A stretch of 64,000 nt of DNA from Thiobacillus sp. 0-1251. GTDB taxonomy: Bacteria; Pseudomonadota; Gammaproteobacteria; Burkholderiales; Thiobacillaceae. The notes beneath the pieces were generated by a model. It made no database searches, was not told the DNA's origin, and worked only from the letters and a program-made list of their open reading frames with translations. The DNA lies in NCBI GenBank assembly GCA_001899305.1, contig MKWL01000018.1, positions 235,555 through 299,554 of the forward strand, read 5' to 3'. The translations under genes were made by a program, and so were the position numbers. How positions within the stretch are numbered: the first letter of the stretch is position 1; each line of letters starts with the position of its first letter. Below are positions 9,941 to 64,000 of this stretch, one piece after another.

Positions 9941-10341
9941 CGCGCCTCTCCCGTCCCGACAGGCGAGACCTGGGGCGGTTGGCCATCCCTGCATAGATTG
10001 AGTTCGTAGAACATGCTGAACGACTCCATCGTGCCTTTCACCGTCCTCATTTTGTGGTCTGGCATGCCAAGCACCAGCCTCAACCGCTTACAGCCGGCCC
10101 GGATAACCTGCACAGTCGTTACGGATGCCTTTACCCGCGTGTTCGGAGGCGCCTTCGTGTCGTTCTTAAGCTTCTGAGCCATATCATCGATGAGCCAGGC
10201 TTGGGCGGTCCCGTCCCGTGAGTCAATGGCCGAAAGTAACAAGCCTCGCACATTGGCTGTCTCAGGTAGCGTCGGAGCAGCCACGGATTCAAGGCTGGAT
10301 CCAAGAAGAGTTAGAAGCAGCATTACGATTGTCCGATTCAT
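9937..10341 (-). CDS. hypothetical secreted protein between traN and traF
   Basis: 134 residues from the ATG at 10341. A signal peptide (MNRTIVMLLLTLLGSSLESVAA) is followed by a small mature domain with two cysteines (RAGCKRLRLVLGMPD and YELNLCRDG) that could form a disulfide. I do not recognise the family. It is coupled to traF by a 4-bp overlap and follows traN by 58 bp, so it is part of the tra operon and its product is expected in the periplasm. An in-frame GTG lies 24 bp upstream of the chosen ATG but would delay the signal peptide. Confidence 0.65.
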   Translation of the reverse strand: MNRTIVMLLLTLLGSSLESVAAPTLPETANVRGLLLSAIDSRDGTAQAWLIDDMAQKLKNDTKAPPNTRVKASVTTVQVIRAGCKRLRLVLGMPDHKMRTVKGTMESFSMFYELNLCRDGQPPQVSPVGTGEAR

Positions 10342-10399
10342 GTTCTGAATATGGTTAGTGACAAAGATGACTTCATGATCGCCTTTCACTCCAACCAAT

Positions 10400-57899: not shown

Positions 57900-58772
57900 A
57901 TGATCAAGTTCACCGTACTGAGTACCAAGGGCGGAGTAGGTAAGACCACTCTAGCTGCCAATCTTGGCGCGCTGATGGCCGATATGGGCCTGCGCGTCCT
58001 GCTGGTTGACGCGGATGTACAGCCCGCGCTTTCAAAGTATTTCAGGATTCGGCGCGAAGCACCATTCGGACTGACCAAGGTCATCACGACCGGTTACGTC
58101 ACCGAAGACTGCATTTCGCAAACTGAAATCGATGGTCTGGATGTTATCCGATCAGATGATCCGGATGGAAGCCTTCAAACATGGCTGCTCCATCGCATTG
58201 ACCGTGGTGAACGTCTCGGTAATGCACTCAATTCACCTGCTGTATCAGATGATTACTACGACTGCGTACTGATCGACACGCAGGGTACGGTTGGACCGCT
58301 GCAAGACACAGCAGCACTCGCTGCCACCCAGATCATTTCGCCAATCAAGCCGGAAATTCTGTCCGCTCGGGAATTCAAGACCGGAACGATGGAGCTGTTG
58401 GCGCGCCTTGAGCCGAGCCCAAATTCTCAGTATCGGGTAGGCCCTGTCAAAGCAGTCATTTCAATGCAGGACAGAACCGCTGACGCCCGGATCATTGCCG
58501 AATCGATTCGGCAGGACTTTCTGAAACTGGGAGGTCGAGTCACGGTTCTGGACACTGTAGTTCCGGATGCCAAGTCCTACAAGGAATCCGCAACGATGTG
58601 TGTGCCTGCGCATCGTCACGAACCATCACGTAAAGGCACCATGCCTTCAGCCTACGAGACCATGCACGCCCTTTTGTGGGAGCTTGTGCCAAGCCTTGCG
58701 GGTCATTACGCAGGGTCCGGACACTCCTCGGCCAGCTCTTCAGCTGCAGACAACGGCGGAGCGGACGAATGA
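57900..58772 (+). CDS. parA: ParA partition ATPase
   Basis: 290 residues. Deviant Walker A STKGGVGKTTLAANLGALMAD (residues ~8-28), LLVDADVQPALSKYF and DCVLIDTQGTVGPLQDTAALAAT mark the ParA/MinD fold. Unlike larger plasmid ParA there is no N-terminal HTH. It partitions the element, or its circular form, together with the ParB encoded next. GGGGAGG precedes the ATG. The C-terminal ~25 residues are Ser/Ala/Gly-rich. ATGA overlap with parB. Confidence 0.92.
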   Translation: MIKFTVLSTKGGVGKTTLAANLGALMADMGLRVLLVDADVQPALSKYFRIRREAPFGLTKVITTGYVTEDCISQTEIDGLDVIRSDDPDGSLQTWLLHRIDRGERLGNALNSPAVSDDYYDCVLIDTQGTVGPLQDTAALAATQIISPIKPEILSAREFKTGTMELLARLEPSPNSQYRVGPVKAVISMQDRTADARIIAESIRQDFLKLGGRVTVLDTVVPDAKSYKESATMCVPAHRHEPSRKGTMPSAYETMHALLWELVPSLAGHYAGSGHSSASSSAADNGGADE

Positions 58773-60445
58773 TGGTGAACCGCAAGAAACCACCGCTGCT
58801 CGGAATCCCGCCGTCCGTCAAAATCACTGATCTGGCTGCCCGCCATGGTTTTCAGCCGAAGCCTGAGGAAGAAAAGCGGGCAATGCGCGACAAGTTCAAA
58901 CTCGAACTGGCCAGGGAAAGCCTGAACGTCCCTGCGCCGAACAGCCGATCCAGCCTCCGGTACGACACTGAAGTCGATGATGCATGGGCATCCCTGCCTG
59001 TGACCAGCGTCCATTTCTACGAGCGCAACCCACGCAAGGCCAATAACGAGGCCTACGCCGAGCTCAAGGAAAGCATCCGTGTGAACGGCATCCTGCAGCC
59101 GCTATCCGTCACCAAGCGGCCGGGGGAGAACCATTACATCCTCTTTGCCGGCGGCAATACCCGACTGCAGGCGATCCGAGAGCTCTGGGAAGAGACGGGT
59201 GACGAGAAGTTTCGCGAAACGCGCGTCATCGTCAAAAAATGGCGGGGCGAATCCGCCGTTCTTCTTGCCCACATGGCCGAGAACACCCAGCGCAACGACA
59301 TGACGTTCTGGGATAAGGCGAATGGAACGTTGGAGCTTAAGAAACAGCTAGAGGATGAAAATGGTCAATCTCTTTCATTTAGGGATTTTGAGTCCGCCCT
59401 CAAAAAAGCAGGGGTCCAAGTAAACCTTCAATCCATAAGCGCATACCGGTTCGCAGTTGAACGAGTCCCAGACATCGGCCCATGGCTCTCAGGGCTGTCC
59501 GTCCGGAACATCCAGCCCCGCCTGAACCTCCTGCTCAAGTTGGCCAATCACCACGATCTGGAAGAGGACACGTTCTATAGCCAGATTGTCACCCCAGCGG
59601 CCAAAGGCATCGCCCAGGATGTCTTGGCCGGAGAAGCATTCAGCGCAGATCAATTCCAGGCTGCAGTAGAGCGCGCCTTGTGTTCTCGCCTCGATATTGA
59701 AGCGCGGGATATGAGCCGGATGCTGACCGCGATTGAGCGATTCCCCAACATGACGCTGGAGGAACTTCGAAAGCTCTGCAAACCCACACCGCCGGCATCG
59801 TCTGCAGCCTCAGCACAGGCCCCCAGTGCCATTCTGAGGGCCGGGCGAGGCGAGACCGGGCCTGAGACTACAGCGCACGCAAAAGCCGCTCCCCAGTCGG
59901 ATATATCCAAGACCAGAACGCCAACCGTATCGGTCAATGTTACTGGTAACAATCCCTCCGCTGCACAGCAAGATCCATCCCCAGTGGAAGCGGGTGCATC
60001 TGAATCGGGATCCCCATTACCCGCGCCAGAGAATCGGGTTGTCGAACTGGTGCAGGAAATCGTCGTTCAGGCAGGTCTGGGCAGCTGTTACGAAGCCGCG
60101 CCAGACATGCCATTGGGCTATGTGATGGGTTTCCCGAAGGATGGCCCACTCGATCTCAAGGAGCAAGCCCAAAGCCGTCAGGCAGCCTGGTGGGTGCTCT
60201 CAATGGCCAGCAGCCAGTTTGACCCTGACATATGCCGCGCAGGCCTGGATGAGGCGAATGTCTGGCGCGGGCTGATTCTTGAAGAAAGTGACGCGCAGAC
60301 CCTCGGTGGGCTTGAGCTTGAAATCCAGCACAACATCGGTGGCCAGGGTGAGTTTCTCGCGATTCCATGGCTGATGAATACCGAGAATCCGATCGCTGGT
60401 GCCTGTCTCTCCTTGCTCTCGTTGATTCGGGAGGTGCGGCCATGA
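58769..60445 (+). CDS. parB: ParB-family partition protein of ICE type
   Basis: 558 residues from the ATG at 58769, which overlaps the parA stop. ParB/sulfiredoxin domain: SVHFYERNPRKANNEAYAELKESIRVNGILQPLSVTKRPGENHYILFAGGNTRLQAIREL (~residues 85-145), then AENTQRNDMTFWDKANGTLELKKQL. The middle is helical with an HTH-like region. The C-terminal third is a Pro/Ala/Ser-rich linker and a separate small domain (QAAWWVLSMASSQFDPDICRAGLDEANVWRGLIL). This long form is typical of PFGI-1-like ICE ParB proteins and much longer than ~300-residue chromosomal ParB. It overlaps the next gene by ATGA. Confidence 0.88.
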   Translation: MMVNRKKPPLLGIPPSVKITDLAARHGFQPKPEEEKRAMRDKFKLELARESLNVPAPNSRSSLRYDTEVDDAWASLPVTSVHFYERNPRKANNEAYAELKESIRVNGILQPLSVTKRPGENHYILFAGGNTRLQAIRELWEETGDEKFRETRVIVKKWRGESAVLLAHMAENTQRNDMTFWDKANGTLELKKQLEDENGQSLSFRDFESALKKAGVQVNLQSISAYRFAVERVPDIGPWLSGLSVRNIQPRLNLLLKLANHHDLEEDTFYSQIVTPAAKGIAQDVLAGEAFSADQFQAAVERALCSRLDIEARDMSRMLTAIERFPNMTLEELRKLCKPTPPASSAASAQAPSAILRAGRGETGPETTAHAKAAPQSDISKTRTPTVSVNVTGNNPSAAQQDPSPVEAGASESGSPLPAPENRVVELVQEIVVQAGLGSCYEAAPDMPLGYVMGFPKDGPLDLKEQAQSRQAAWWVLSMASSQFDPDICRAGLDEANVWRGLILEESDAQTLGGLELEIQHNIGGQGEFLAIPWLMNTENPIAGACLSLLSLIREVRP

Positions 60446-61029
60446 TGGTTCGGGTAATCGACAACACGCTCAGGGCATCTTTGCTGATGCATCTGATTGA
60501 ACAACTGGAACGCGGTGATCTCGCCGTACTGCTTGAGAAGGGGGCATGTCCGAAGTCGATGGACCGGCTGCGGAACATGAGCATCAGCGAGCTTCTGCAA
60601 CTCGCATCCTCCGGCCACCCTGATATCCACTTCAGCATCGACGAGTCCGGATTCGATCTGGGCGTAGCAACGATCGACCGCCGCAAGGAAGAAACCGAGC
60701 ACCTGATTTACTTCATCCAGAACGGTGCCAGTCAGTCGATGGTTCATGAGTTCTTCCCTCAGGTCGACCACAGGCTGATCCAGACCTATCGCAAGCTCAT
60801 GAAGACCGACCGGCGTATCGGAAGGGTGTCACTGCCTGACGAGAAGGTAAGGGATCTGGTTCACAAATGCTGGCATGGCATGCCCGAGGAATACCCAAGA
60901 GTTCACACAGACCGGGAGCGGTTGATCGTGCTTCATGGCTTCTTCCAGGACTACTCCCTCGACATCCTCTACGCGGCCGTCAACGAATTCAGGAAGCCTG
61001 ATGAAAGGAAGTCCAATGGCAAAAAGTAA
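60442..61029 (+). CDS. DUF2857-like protein
   Basis: 195 residues. SISELLQLASSGHPDIHFSIDESGFDLGVATIDRRKEETEHLIYFIQNGASQSMVHEFFPQVDHRLIQTYRKLM suggests a helical, possibly DNA-binding protein. DUF2857 genes follow parB in PFGI-1-like elements, which is the basis for the name. I cannot verify the family by search. ATGA overlap upstream, 14-bp overlap downstream. Confidence 0.6.
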   Translation: MMVRVIDNTLRASLLMHLIEQLERGDLAVLLEKGACPKSMDRLRNMSISELLQLASSGHPDIHFSIDESGFDLGVATIDRRKEETEHLIYFIQNGASQSMVHEFFPQVDHRLIQTYRKLMKTDRRIGRVSLPDEKVRDLVHKCWHGMPEEYPRVHTDRERLIVLHGFFQDYSLDILYAAVNEFRKPDERKSNGKK

Positions 61030-61450
61030 GCGACTTGTTCCCCGTGCCAATGAAGGCCGCGTGACTCATGACGAAGCTGTCAACAGCACGATTACGCCGG
61101 CGCTGCTTCTGGATATCTTCGATGAGCCCATCGTGTTCCAGCGCGCCTATGTCGGACTGACTGGAAGCGCCGTGGCTGCCTTGTTCCTGTCCTATGCCGT
61201 ATACACAACAGAACGCCTGTCAGCAGAAGCCGAGGGCTGGTTCAAGAAGTCGGGTGAGGAATGGAAGACCGAGACAGGTCTGACACGATTCGAGCAACAA
61301 ACTGCCCGCCGCATCTTGCGAGAGCTGGATATCCTCATCGAGCGCAAGTACGGCTTGCCTGCTGAGCTTTATTTCAAGATCCGGATCGATCGGGTTCTTG
61401 AACTGCTGTCGGCACAAGCAGATGCCCGATGGGGCCAGATTCAGTTCTGA
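61016..61450 (+). CDS. hypothetical replication-module protein, short
   Basis: 144 residues from the ATG at 61016 with AAAGGAAG upstream. The segment FQRAYVGLTGSAVAALFLSYAVYTTERLSAEAEGWFKKSGEEWKTETGLTRFEQQTARRILRELDIL (~residues 36-103) looks like a winged-helix/primase-N-like domain. It is paralogous in layout to the next protein: KSGEEWKTETGL here versus KTSTEWKQVSGL there. Probably a duplicated DNA-binding module of the replication region. Function unassigned. Confidence 0.6.
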   Translation: MAKSKRLVPRANEGRVTHDEAVNSTITPALLLDIFDEPIVFQRAYVGLTGSAVAALFLSYAVYTTERLSAEAEGWFKKSGEEWKTETGLTRFEQQTARRILRELDILIERKYGLPAELYFKIRIDRVLELLSAQADARWGQIQF

Positions 61451-62880
61451 CCCAGCTGATCATGCGAGCACATCCCATTCACAAGGCAGATACAGGGGTA
61501 GACGAGGCCCTGTTGCAGGAGGTCAAGGATCTCCTTTCTGCTCTTGGGAACCGGTTTGTCGCTTACTACCCCAGTCTGGCAGCCCTGACGGGGTCTCCCA
61601 AAGCCGCCTTGATGCTTGGGCATGCCATGTACATGACGCGTGTGGTCATGGAAAAGCAGCCATCCCGCCAAGGCTGGTTCTGGAAGACTTCGACTGAATG
61701 GAAGCAGGTCTCAGGATTGTCTGTTCGAGAACTCGAAACAGCACGCCGGACACTGCTGCACTCTGGAATTCTGAGCGAAGAGCGTCGCGGCATGCCAGCG
61801 AAGCTCTGGTACAGGGTCGATCTGGACAACCTGTCGCGCAGGCTCTGTGAGTATGCAAATACCGCCTACCGTCCATGGTCATGGGAAGACCGGGTTCTGA
61901 AAACCCTGTTGGGTAAGCCGGTGATGTTCTATGCCCCGTTCGCCTGGATTGCAGACAGCGCCCTGGCAGGCCTTTATGCCTCTTCACTGTTTGGCAAGCT
62001 GCGGCAGGCCGTAGGCCAGCATGAAGTGGCCGATGGTGGCTGGTTCAGCAGTCCTGTCGTCGATGGCATGACGCGACTTCAATTCGGCCGGCGGATGCTC
62101 ATGAACGCCCGGGCTCGTCTGGTCGATTCCGGAATGATGGAGGAAGCACGGGAAAACCGGATGCAATCCGTCATTCTGACCCGCCTGAAACTGACGAGCC
62201 TGATCGGGAAAATCGGCCTGCAAGCCAATGAATTCCACAGTTTGCAGGATCCTGCAAACAAGGATGCAGGATCCTGCAAACAAGAGTTGCTCAAAACGCG
62301 TAACAAGAGTTGCCCGAACCGCGAATCAAGAGTTGCCGGTTCCGCGAATCAAGAGTTGCCCGAACCGCAGATCAACAGTTGCCCGAACCGCGAATCAAGT
62401 TCTGCGGTTTCAGCACCTTTCTCTAATAAGGAAATAAATACTTCATACCAACCCCTCCATAAACAGGGGGTGGGGGTGGAAAGGAATTTTGCAGACCGGC
62501 AACCCCCGGTGAACGAGCACAACCCGGACGACCTGTTCTTTCCGGACAAACTGCTACCGGAGGAAAAGCGGGCAGCGCTAGGGATTCTGGCGGGTAGCCG
62601 GAATCCTCAAACACTTCTCGACGAGCTCAGCGGCCAGATGGCCAATGGGCATGTTGCCAGTCCCCTGGCCTATCTCAGGGGTCTCAGGAAGAAACAACTG
62701 GCTGGCGAATTCCAGCCGGAGCTCGCGTACCGGATTGCCGCAGAGCGGCACAACAGGCAGGAAATCCTGAAGCAGCGAGAGTCCCTGATCCGCAGTCCAG
62801 TCCCAGCTGACCGAATCTCATCAGAGCAGGCCAGACACAGCCTGGCTGAGTTGCGCCAACGTCTGTGGGGAAAGTCATGA
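61429..62880 (+). CDS. STY4528-like pathogenicity-island replication protein
   Basis: 483 residues. The N-terminal half has two winged-helix-like repeats (AALMLGHAMYMTRVVMEKQPSRQGWFWKTSTEWKQVSGLSVRELETARRTLLHSGIL, and SALAGLYASSLFGKLRQAVGQHEVADGGWFSSPVVDGMTRLQFGRRML). The central ~270-325 region is a repetitive low-complexity linker encoded by the iteron-like DNA. The C-terminal part is charged and helical. The arrangement after parB and DUF2857 is that of STY4528-type replication proteins of PFGI-1-like ICEs. The start at 61429 overlaps the previous gene; an ATG at 61462 is equally possible, and neither has a strong ribosome binding site. Confidence 0.6.
   Translation: MGPDSVLTQLIMRAHPIHKADTGVDEALLQEVKDLLSALGNRFVAYYPSLAALTGSPKAALMLGHAMYMTRVVMEKQPSRQGWFWKTSTEWKQVSGLSVRELETARRTLLHSGILSEERRGMPAKLWYRVDLDNLSRRLCEYANTAYRPWSWEDRVLKTLLGKPVMFYAPFAWIADSALAGLYASSLFGKLRQAVGQHEVADGGWFSSPVVDGMTRLQFGRRMLMNARARLVDSGMMEEARENRMQSVILTRLKLTSLIGKIGLQANEFHSLQDPANKDAGSCKQELLKTRNKSCPNRESRVAGSANQELPEPQINSCPNRESSSAVSAPFSNKEINTSYQPLHKQGVGVERNFADRQPPVNEHNPDDLFFPDKLLPEEKRAALGILAGSRNPQTLLDELSGQMANGHVASPLAYLRGLRKKQLAGEFQPELAYRIAAERHNRQEILKQRESLIRSPVPADRISSEQARHSLAELRQRLWGKS
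62241..62284. repeat. two 20-bp direct repeats each with an 18-bp palindrome core
   Basis: TGCAGGATCCTGCAAACAAG occurs at 62243-62262 and 62265-62284, a period of 22 bp. The first copy sits in a perfect 18-bp palindrome, TTTGCAGGATCCTGCAAA (62241-62258). They adjoin the 23-bp array. Confidence 0.85.
62281..62395. repeat. five tandem 23-bp iteron-like repeats
   Basis: Units at 62281, 62304, 62327, 62350 and 62373, each 23 bp, all starting CAA(G/C)AGTTGC. Consensus CAAGAGTTGCCCGAACCG then CGAAT. The first unit is divergent in its second half, and a sixth degenerate start follows at 62396. Because 23 is not a multiple of three, the translation shifts frame at each unit, so the repeat is conserved as DNA, as in replication iterons. 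Confidence 0.85.
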
Positions 62881-63089
62881 GCCAGGAGACCACCATCGTT
62901 TCTCGGAGATCGCCTCTCGAAGGCGCACGTCGAAAGGGGGCTGAAGCGGCCAATGCCGGTTTGCCAGCCTCTGCTTGCCCCTACCGGGACAAGCGAACCC
63001 TGTCTGGAAGGCTCTCCTGGGCAAGAGCATTCAGGAATGCCTGGCTACAGGGGCATCGGGATGTGATGCAGGGAGATTTGTTCAGGTGA
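62877..63089 (+). CDS. Rmf/CrpP-like small basic protein
   Basis: 70 residues from the ATG at 62877, overlapping the replication-gene stop by ATGA. The arrangement GARRKGAEAANAGLPASACPYRDKRTLSGRLSWARAFRNAWLQGHRD has the Rmf/CrpP pattern: an Ala/Gly/Arg helix, a Cys-Pro-Tyr, then a Trp-x-Gly-like helix (AWLQGHRD). Rmf dimerises ribosomes in stationary phase, while CrpP-like relatives occur on mobile elements. I infer only fold similarity. The repeat array begins 7 bp after its stop. Confidence 0.5.
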   Translation: MSQETTIVSRRSPLEGARRKGAEAANAGLPASACPYRDKRTLSGRLSWARAFRNAWLQGHRDVMQGDLFR

Positions 63090-63095
63090 GCGTGC

Positions 63096-63417
63096 AAGGT
63101 GGCGCAGCAGGAAGTGGGTGTGTTTGCAGTGCAAACACTTTCCAGCCGTCCGGAAGGTGGCGCAGCAGGAAGTGGGTGTGTTTGCAGTGCAAACACTTTC
63201 CAGCCGTCCGGAAGGTGGCGCAGCAGGAAGTGGGTGGCTTGTTGGCACTGCCAACAAGATTCAGCCGTCCGGAAGGTGGCGCAGCAGGAAGTGGGTGACT
63301 TGATGGTAGTGCCATCAAACCCAGCCGTCCGGAAGGTGGCGCAGCAGGAAGTGGGTGACTTGATGGTAGTGCCATCAAACCCAGCCGTCCGGAAGGTGGC
63401 GCAGCAGGAAGTGGGTG
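63096..63417 (+). repeat. array of six conserved cores separated by five variable hairpins
   Basis: A 25-nt core beginning AAGGTGGCGCAGCAGGAAG occurs at 63096, 63154, 63212, 63273, 63333 and 63393. From the second copy on it is preceded by the constant CAGCCGTCCGG, giving a 36-nt core. The spacings are 58, 58, 61, 60 and 60. Between cores lie 22-25-nt segments that each form a stem-loop: TGTTTGC-AGT-GCAAACA (twice), CTTGTTGGC-ACT-GCCAACAAG (once), TTGATGGT-AGT-GCCATCAA (twice). Inside the core, GCCGTCC-GGAA-GGTGGC can fold with a GNRA loop. Not CRISPR: the spacers are palindromic and repeated. The open frames across it are by-products. Confidence 0.85.
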
Positions 63418-63419
63418 TG

Positions 63420-63651
63420 AAGTGATATTCGGTGGGCTGCCGACAGTAGTGCAATGCCGTCCGTTGAAACTCAACGGCAAGCCTGCTTGTAAGAGCAGGA
63501 GGCGTCTCGAACCAGGCGATCGAGACAGAGGCCTTGTCTGGCTGCAGACCGGACTTGGCAAATGGCGGCTACCGCAGCGGCATTGCGATGACCTGGTGTT
63601 GGTAACCGTGCAGGTCATCCTGTGAACCCGGCAGCCCACCGAATATCACTT
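63420..63651 (+). ncRNA. large predicted structured RNA closing the repeat array
   Basis: The bases 63420-63442 pair perfectly over 23 bp with 63629-63651 (starting AAGTGATATTCGG). Inside: a 9-bp helix 63451-63459/63578-63586 enclosing hairpins at 63461-63477 (7 bp, AAC loop), 63482-63499 (6 bp), 63504-63526 (7 bp) and 63536-63549 (5 bp); then a 9-bp hairpin arm 63587-63595/63611-63619. So this is a closing stem with a branched arm of four small hairpins and a second arm. No ORF explains it. Whether it acts as RNA or as folded single-stranded DNA is not shown. It sits immediately after the sixth core of the array. A MITE is an alternative reading of the terminal repeat. Confidence 0.6.
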
Positions 63652-63689
63652 GGGAGATTCTATCAAATGAAAACTGTGGAGCTTGATTG

Positions 63690-64000
63690 ATGGCAGATGC
63701 AAGGAACAAAGTGGGATTTCCCTTGGCAGCGGACTCTCCCTTTGAGGACGGGTACGACATTGCCGGGGAGCGTGACGCCCTGAAGGATCTGATCGAGGCA
63801 CCGGAACCTGATGAGAGGGATCTGCGGTGGCCTCGGTTCATGGAGCTTCTGGAACGCGAGGAACGACTGAAGCGGGATCAGTCGAATCGGCAGCAGCGCC
63901 AATATGCCGATCCGATTGTTCCTGACCACGAAGCGAGGGCACTGAAGCAGATCGGCAGTCTTGTTACTGACGAAACCGACGTGATGGAGATCCACACGAA
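63690..64000 (+). CDS. hypothetical protein, 3' end outside window
   Basis: The frame is open from the ATG at 63690 (GGAG 11 bp upstream) to the end of the window, over 103 residues. It begins MADARNKVGFPLAADSPFED and continues with ERDALKDLIEAPEPDERDLRWPRFMELLEREERLKRDQSNRQQRQY, strongly charged and helical. I do not recognise it. A 7-residue ORF at 63667 ends TGATGG just before it and may be a leader. It lies 39 bp after the structured element. Confidence 0.6.
   Translation, partial: MADARNKVGFPLAADSPFEDGYDIAGERDALKDLIEAPEPDERDLRWPRFMELLEREERLKRDQSNRQQRQYADPIVPDHEARALKQIGSLVTDETDVMEIHT

Follow-up and report, generated by a model that had tools for sequence, protein, structure and literature searches.

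A hairpin array of fixed geometry and covarying stems at the putative replication origin of a Thiobacillus integrative conjugative element

What is the role of a block of direct repeats whose hairpin stems change in sequence while their pairing is kept? Such a block lies near the end of a 64,000-nucleotide stretch of Thiobacillus DNA (the window), where an earlier note, made from the letters alone, had described six near-identical cores, each followed by a stem-loop. That note held that pairing rather than sequence is selected, read the wobble pairs as a sign of a plus-strand RNA, guessed at a CsrA/RsmA-binding sponge, and left DNA-binding or centromere roles possible. The comparisons described here favor a reading to which, as a whole, we give a probability of about 70%: the block is the array of a putative oriV, acting as a cis element of the DNA through hairpins or dyads of fixed geometry.

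The array occupies positions 63096..63417 of the plus strand (TRF score 436), where integrative conjugative elements (ICEs) of the PFGI-1/pKLC102 type have their putative oriV repeats. The repeat itself is real, and its location, its three stems, the AGT and ACT loops and the T-G pair were as the earlier note had reported. Its six cores define units of 58, 58, 61, 60 and 60 nt; reading frames break and unit lengths vary, which rules out a coding role, as had been concluded from lengths of 58, 60 and 61. The claim that every core is followed by a stem-loop holds for five of the six. The sixth core is followed by no hairpin with a 3-nt loop and continues into a structured element with 23-bp inverted arms. 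The five hairpins or dyads, to which no strand is assigned, lie at 63121..63137 (TGTTTGC-AGT-GCAAACA), 63179..63195 (the same sequence, with a stem identical to that of the first), 63240..63256 (TGTTGGC-ACT-GCCAACA), 63301..63317 (TGATGGT-AGT-GCCATCA, with a T-G pair at the loop) and 63361..63377 (identical to the fourth). In the third, complementarity extends to 10 positions from the central base. The core itself contains a plus-strand hairpin, GCCGTCCGGAAGGTGGC, with a GGAA loop at 63145..63161 and further copies at 63203-63219, 63264-63280, 63324-63340 and 63384-63400. A unit of the array thus consists of a conserved core and a 17-nt hairpin or dyad with a 7-bp stem, a TG/CA base and a 3-nt loop; the stem has G-C, C-G or T-G at the loop and four free pairs that are nearly always complementary.

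The array sits in an ICE of the PFGI-1/pKLC102 family, in the gene order parA, parB, DUF2857, STY4528-type, array, PFL_4669. All of these genes lie on the plus strand. A ParA-family ATPase gene (57900..58772; PF13614, E 1.1e-22) is followed by an ICE-type ParB gene whose start codon is uncertain (58676..60445; TIGR03764 ICE_PFGI_1_parB, 160.9 bits, above the cut-off of 143.75), a DUF2857 gene (60367..61029; PF11198, E 2.7e-18), a gene for a 171-aa protein without a family match, and the gene of an STY4528-type replication protein (61429..62880), whose match to NCBIfam NF040582 is weak (E 1.1e-4, 22.4 bits against a cut-off of 130). Beyond the array, the PFL_4669/AcaB-family gene (63690..64000) is cut by the end of the window, which is also the end of the contig. 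Its fragment is 79% identical over 104 aa to a homologue in a second ICE of the same genome (L018:10357-11403), which matches TIGR03761 (E 2.8e-42) and PF08900 (E 3.2e-46); in that homologous ICE the order continues to ssb and topB. The array lies between an STY4528-type gene, weakly matched (22.4 bits vs 130) and at the PFL_4668 position, and PFL_4669, in a gap that also holds the second structured element and an Rmf/CrpP-type ORF. A PDB sequence search with PFL_4669 returned no match, and the AlphaFold models of PFL_4669 (pLDDT 43.5) and of the STY4528-type protein (49.9) were unusably poor.

Within the STY4528-type gene, 22/23-nt direct repeats (62243..62399, plus strand; TRF) form a candidate iteron half of the origin, and 23-nt repeats also occur upstream of PFL_4669 in several other ICEs. 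The repeats at 62243-62399 are followed by an A+T-rich stretch, an arrangement that resembles iterons inside an initiator gene. The 70-aa Rmf/CrpP-family ORF (62877..63089, plus strand), which adjoins the array upstream, scores 33.9 bits with NCBIfam NF041886 (cut-off 28) and 24.9 with Pfam RMF, below the cut-off of 27.9. By eye, the arrays of L019-L022 begin soon after the STY4528 stop, and this ORF seems absent or degraded there.

Related elements place the array among known structures. For PFGI-1 (P. fluorescens Pf-5), the putative oriV has been placed directly upstream of PFL_4669; its G+C-rich half holds four direct repeats of 46 bp, and within each is an imperfect inverted repeat, given in print as AGTGTTGTGGGCCACACCACT (PMC2647930). 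Compared by eye, this printed repeat fits TGTTGTG-GGC-CACACCA with one mismatch; PFGI-1 and the window are thus alike in having repeats upstream of PFL_4669 that carry an inverted repeat of matching geometry, and differ in unit length and number, with four 46-bp units in PFGI-1 and six cores at 58-61 nt in the window. The other half of the origin holds a 23-bp palindrome in four copies in PFGI-1 (PMC2647930), whereas the candidate for it in the window is the set of 22/23-nt repeats inside the STY4528-type gene.

Among the closest known systems is pKLC102 of P. aeruginosa (NC_019202.1, L195), in which sixteen units of exactly 57 bp, defined by their period and not by pairing, lie between STY4528 and PFL_4669. 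As in the window, each unit holds one covarying hairpin with a 7-bp stem and a 3-nt loop; it is present in 16/16 units (14 perfect, two with one mismatch), with eight different stems. Pairs were formed in 97.4% of cells compared to 78.8% in shuffles, and the covariation score was 0.431 compared to 0.101, neither value being reached by any of 500 shuffles, and structures slid out of register paired in at most 48.1% of cells. Stricter measures lay within the shuffle range for the 11 distinct units (pairs changed on both sides, reached by 247/500; further pair types, by 254/500). pKLC102 differs from the window in its number of units (16 vs 6), its core sequence, its loops (ACT, AGT and GCC) and one annotated small ORF between its array and PFL_4669. 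ICEHin1056 of H. influenzae (NC_011409.1, L196) likewise has hairpin repeats between STY4528 and PFL_4669, with three perfect hairpins (TGTAAAG-ggg-CTTTACA), and differs in its short, A+T-rich 36-bp units and GGG loop.

Because direct repeats occupy the oriV place of PFGI-1 and pKLC102 and share their anatomy with the array, each repeat carrying an inverted repeat, the array belongs to a known kind. It is highly probable, from position, gene order and repeat anatomy, that it is the repeat block of the putative oriV of a PFGI-1/pKLC102-family ICE in Thiobacillus. It is important to note that the origins of pKLC102 and PFGI-1 are themselves called postulated or putative in the accounts consulted (PMC7685784, PMC2647930). 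Those accounts give pKLC102 up to 30 circular copies (PMC7685784), suggest strand displacement for it, and leave the replication mode of PFGI-1 open between theta and strand displacement (PMC2647930). The replication module of ICEHin1056 is described as having an oriV recognized from iterons and inverted repeats (PMC2258188) and genes that, in most cases tested, impair transfer when mutated (PMC3739013), and for PPHGI-1 both an oriV and a capacity for self-replication are stated (PMC6220960).

Within the genus, the array was found in 10 of 56 genomes, its own included. A blastn search detected it in 7 of 60 relatives, all of the same genus, and in none of 24 genomes from other families of the order; a plasmid blastn search with 62880-63720 gave no matches. 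Among viral contigs, one (L102) matched the core pattern, and a dyad scan of that contig found none. Thiobacillus ICEs keep both core and hairpin, with two to seven cores per array not cut by a contig end (the array of L019 contains an internal run of N). A mobile repeat spread genome-wide was considered and rejected for the core, which in its own genome was found only in two ICE loci.

Ten ICE loci of Thiobacillus yielded 20 distinct units, in which covariation was compared with shuffles, a test that does not correct for relatedness. Helix 1, the variable stem, was paired in 100% of cells, and its percentage paired, its cells changed on both sides and its covariation score exceeded all 500 shuffles. 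Changes on both arms were seen at two pairs; of the 500 shuffles, 15 reached the stricter measures, namely the number of pairs altered on both sides and the number of further pair types. Helix 2, the core hairpin, was paired in 91.7% of cells, and no pair was changed on both sides.

Beyond the genus, a covariance-model search pointed to two distant genomes, G690 and G571; what these have in common with Thiobacillus is the hairpin, at the same place in the ICE. The results of this model (R1) rest mainly on helix 1 and sequence; 14 loci with weak matches outside the genus were examined, of which three were real (L065, L076 and L086, in G690 and G571) and the others looked unrelated. In G571 the STY4528-type reading frame contains the elements at its 3' end, and the fifth of them spans the stop. 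The earlier note had proposed a search for the core in other genomes: core and hairpin occur together in Thiobacillus, and outside the genus the hairpin alone is shared. A reading centered on a conserved core was rejected on these grounds, the core not being shared outside Thiobacillus save for an 11-nt stretch in G690.

The hairpin follows a rule that is frequent in ICEs of this kind: TG-N4-S, a 3-nt loop and S-N4-CA, with arms that differ. PFL_4669 loci came from 25 genomes out of 399 in the order, 28 out of 340 in the class and 7 out of 299 in the phylum; each count includes the source genome. In 27 ICE regions, six of them from Thiobacillus, 52 perfect elements with a loop of 3 were found in 16 regions, compared to 1.2 expected from shuffling in 50-base blocks and to 1-9 perfect elements at each of the other loop lengths (0-2 and 4-11) in the same regions; three of the 52 are distant from the array position and could be chance matches. 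A further 18 regions (all four plasmid matches, all six new PFL_4669 loci and eight of 40 listed matches) gave 32 perfect elements at loop 3 in nine regions, 14 of them from pKLC102, and 0-3 at other lengths. Of the eight listed matches, pKLC102 and ICEHin1056 were picked for their printed link to an oriV and six for host diversity, none after the hairpins had been seen. By comparison, 44 unrelated loci (133 kb), which were the weak-match loci of the R1 search, contained two elements at loop 3, two at loop 1 and one at loop 5, and positions 1-57000 of the window, scanned as a control, held no perfect loop-3 element.

The exact form is absent from 20 of the 45 PFL_4669 ICE regions (11/27 and 9/18). 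Four of the 11 are Thiobacillus ICEs, in which the T-G pair keeps the hairpin from counting as perfect. Inspection by eye revealed 17-nt palindromes with other ends in other ICEs, with CT/AG in several loci and, in Marinobacter, TT/AA ends in 34-bp units. Where the rule is followed, the hairpins lie upstream of PFL_4669 and, in some cases, before ssb or within the STY4528-type gene. A table of 67 non-redundant elements was assembled by requiring six of seven pairs and TG, CG or TT ends (78 of 96 kept, 67 after removal of duplicates); a few of its elements are likely due to chance, and its entries are not phylogenetically independent. In this table, pairs 3-6 are Watson-Crick in 65-66 of 67 elements and show three or four pair types apiece; pairs 9 and 10, which lie outside the selection, are complementary in 47 and 38 of the 67. 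Pairing thus persists as the arms change in sequence, as first claimed for the window, and it does so far beyond it, in the ICE regions, in pKLC102 and in the 20 Thiobacillus units. In the literature searched on the topic, which did not include the primary pKLC102 paper (Klockgether 2004), covarying arms were not described.

Do the elements act as RNA or as DNA? An improbable possibility is a structured intergenic RNA in the mRNA of the replication module, setting the stability or translation of PFL_4669. The flanking genes share one orientation, the predicted fold of the array is better than that of its shuffles (z -3.7), core loops are of the GNRA type (GGAA, GCAA or GAAA) in 19 of 20 Thiobacillus units, and a T-G pair next to the loop occurs in 15 of 67 elements and is never replaced by A-C. 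All 15 of these elements, however, belong to Thiobacillus ICEs or G571, and the GNRA-type core was noticed in Thiobacillus ICEs only. At pairs 4-8 of the table, G-T and A-C kinds are balanced (4 vs 3). Twelve distinct hairpins with one mismatch, each with a neighbor within 200 nt and read in gene direction, comprise four T-G, three C-A or A-C and five others; three of the four T-G cases fall at the loop-adjacent position shared by Thiobacillus and G571, and both single mismatches of pKLC102 are of the A-C kind. Since the kinds are balanced apart from that one T-G position, the wobble argument for a plus-strand RNA fails across the family; the part of it that stands is the loop-adjacent pair itself, and a plus-strand RNA is not favored. 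The position of the G571 elements inside coding sequence also argues against it, as does the absence of a family match: an Rfam search of the window gave 0 matches at gathering score, and 62880-63720 gave a single mir-30 match at chance level (E 1.1). The proposed CsrA/RsmA sponge is the least probable reading by far. AGGA and GGA motifs are present in the window cores as described; the core loop varies among GGAA, GCAA, GAAA and TGAA in the 20 Thiobacillus units, so that conservation of the GGA loop does not extend to other ICEs of the genus. A search for PF02599 (CsrA), which was positive in 3 of 14 control genomes, had 0 matches in the source genome, which excludes a sponge for a host-encoded CsrA. 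In 41 of 50 distinct elements (29 regions) the outer loop bases, which are unable to pair with each other in a hairpin, complement one another, and this points to a dyad in DNA. The evidence thus moves toward the DNA-level role that the earlier note had left possible.

Complementarity that runs into the loop also suits a double-stranded site bound by a dimer better than a pure hairpin, as this 41/50 count suggests. A possible, though rather unlikely, alternative would be a set of double-stranded dyad sites for a dimeric ICE protein, either ParB (as parS or KorB-type operators) or a PFL_4669/AcaB-type regulator, making the array a centromere or a group of operators. Operators of the KorB/ParB type resemble the window elements in having an odd palindrome, a central G or C, multiple sites and a nearby ParB gene; the window elements differ in their free, covarying arms and their site length of 17. 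The central base is indeed G or C in most loops, genes for ParA and ParB are found 2.6-5.2 kb upstream of the array, the ParB-family match in the same element being above its cut-off, and within some ICEs the elements have one stem in common and are scattered across the module, as in G727 with seven perfect TGGCCAC elements across 4.2 kb. Arms nevertheless vary within one array (eight stems in pKLC102, three in the window) and are almost never mixed between halves. The conserved site that tracks its binding protein, expected of a ParB/KorB system, was not found, there being three stems in one array, and across 15 regions, compared by similarity without tree correction, the stem showed no sign of co-evolving with ParB, STY4528 or PFL_4669. 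The Thiobacillus STY4528-type and PFL_4669 proteins are nearest to those of G252, and ParB to those of G346 and G252, whose stems differ, whereas G690 and G571 share the Thiobacillus stem despite more distant ParB, STY4528 and PFL_4669. On the side of the dyad reading, one of the eight proteins compared, TopB, is closest to that of G690, which has the same stem. Little mixing between halves, several arms per array and complementarity past 17 bases together amount to more than a plain dimer operator needs. Palindromes kept by mutation alone through template switching and amplified by slippage, with no function, are also improbable, if slightly less so than the mRNA element. Variation from two to seven cores between uncut loci and complementary arms that extend past the conserved part are what such a process might leave; fixed TG/CA ends, a loop of 3 and a fixed ICE place over distant hosts are unexpected from it, and the T-G pair is kept in 16 of 20 Thiobacillus units.

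Returning to the putative oriV array, a simple model is that it probably acts at the DNA level when the excised circular ICE replicates or is maintained. Its units would be recognized by their shape and fixed ends, as extruded or single-strand hairpins. Recognized hairpins may then load or prime the replication machinery, the weakest step of the model and a tentative one; this single-strand initiation step is modeled on the single-strand initiation sites of strand-displacement plasmids. Elements inside coding sequence or upstream of ssb in some ICEs argue against a single origin block. More generally, and doubtfully, the 17-nt elements could form a family-wide code, recognized by shape and not by arm sequence, that starts or primes DNA synthesis; its site, equally doubtful, would be single-stranded or extruded DNA in the replication module of PFGI-1/pKLC102 superfamily ICEs. 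If this were true, free drift of the arms would explain why stems differ between ICEs and why up to eight occur in one array. Replication after excision in this large family is unsettled in the accounts cited here (PMC2647930, PMC7685784), and the rule of fixed geometry with free arms allows a candidate origin to be found in many family members.

Between the array and PFL_4669 lies the second structured element (63420..63651, plus strand), which has 23-bp perfect inverted arms at 63420-63442 and 63629-63651 and is predicted to fold very stably (z -9.2). Of 56 genomes in the genus, two carry it, its own included; the other copy is at the same place in G062 (L025 9554-9788, reverse strand). Between the two copies, which as two sequences are too few to decide the nature of the element, 68 predicted pairs are unchanged, four changed on both sides, six on one side and eight broken, with one gap. 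Searches with it gave no Rfam match, no plasmid blastn match and no match in viral contigs.

The source genome carries two ICEs of the PFGI-1/pKLC102 family on one contig, at 132.5 kb (L018) and 298.7 kb (the window), and their hairpin stems differ. By eye, a short ORF follows the last core of L018 (~10335-10359), its stop overlapping the PFL_4669 start (TGATGG); the arrangement is similar in L019 and L020 and not in L023. G346 has its hairpin cluster twice, upstream of PFL_4669 and, inverted, upstream of ssb (L165 8884-8975 and 10919-11081), so that the two inverted arrays flank the two genes between them. G571 has a lone TGATGGC-ACT-GCCATCA about 410 kb from its ICE cluster (L105 9463), where it adjoins about four A+T-rich repeats of the type TAATCGTAACTTT.
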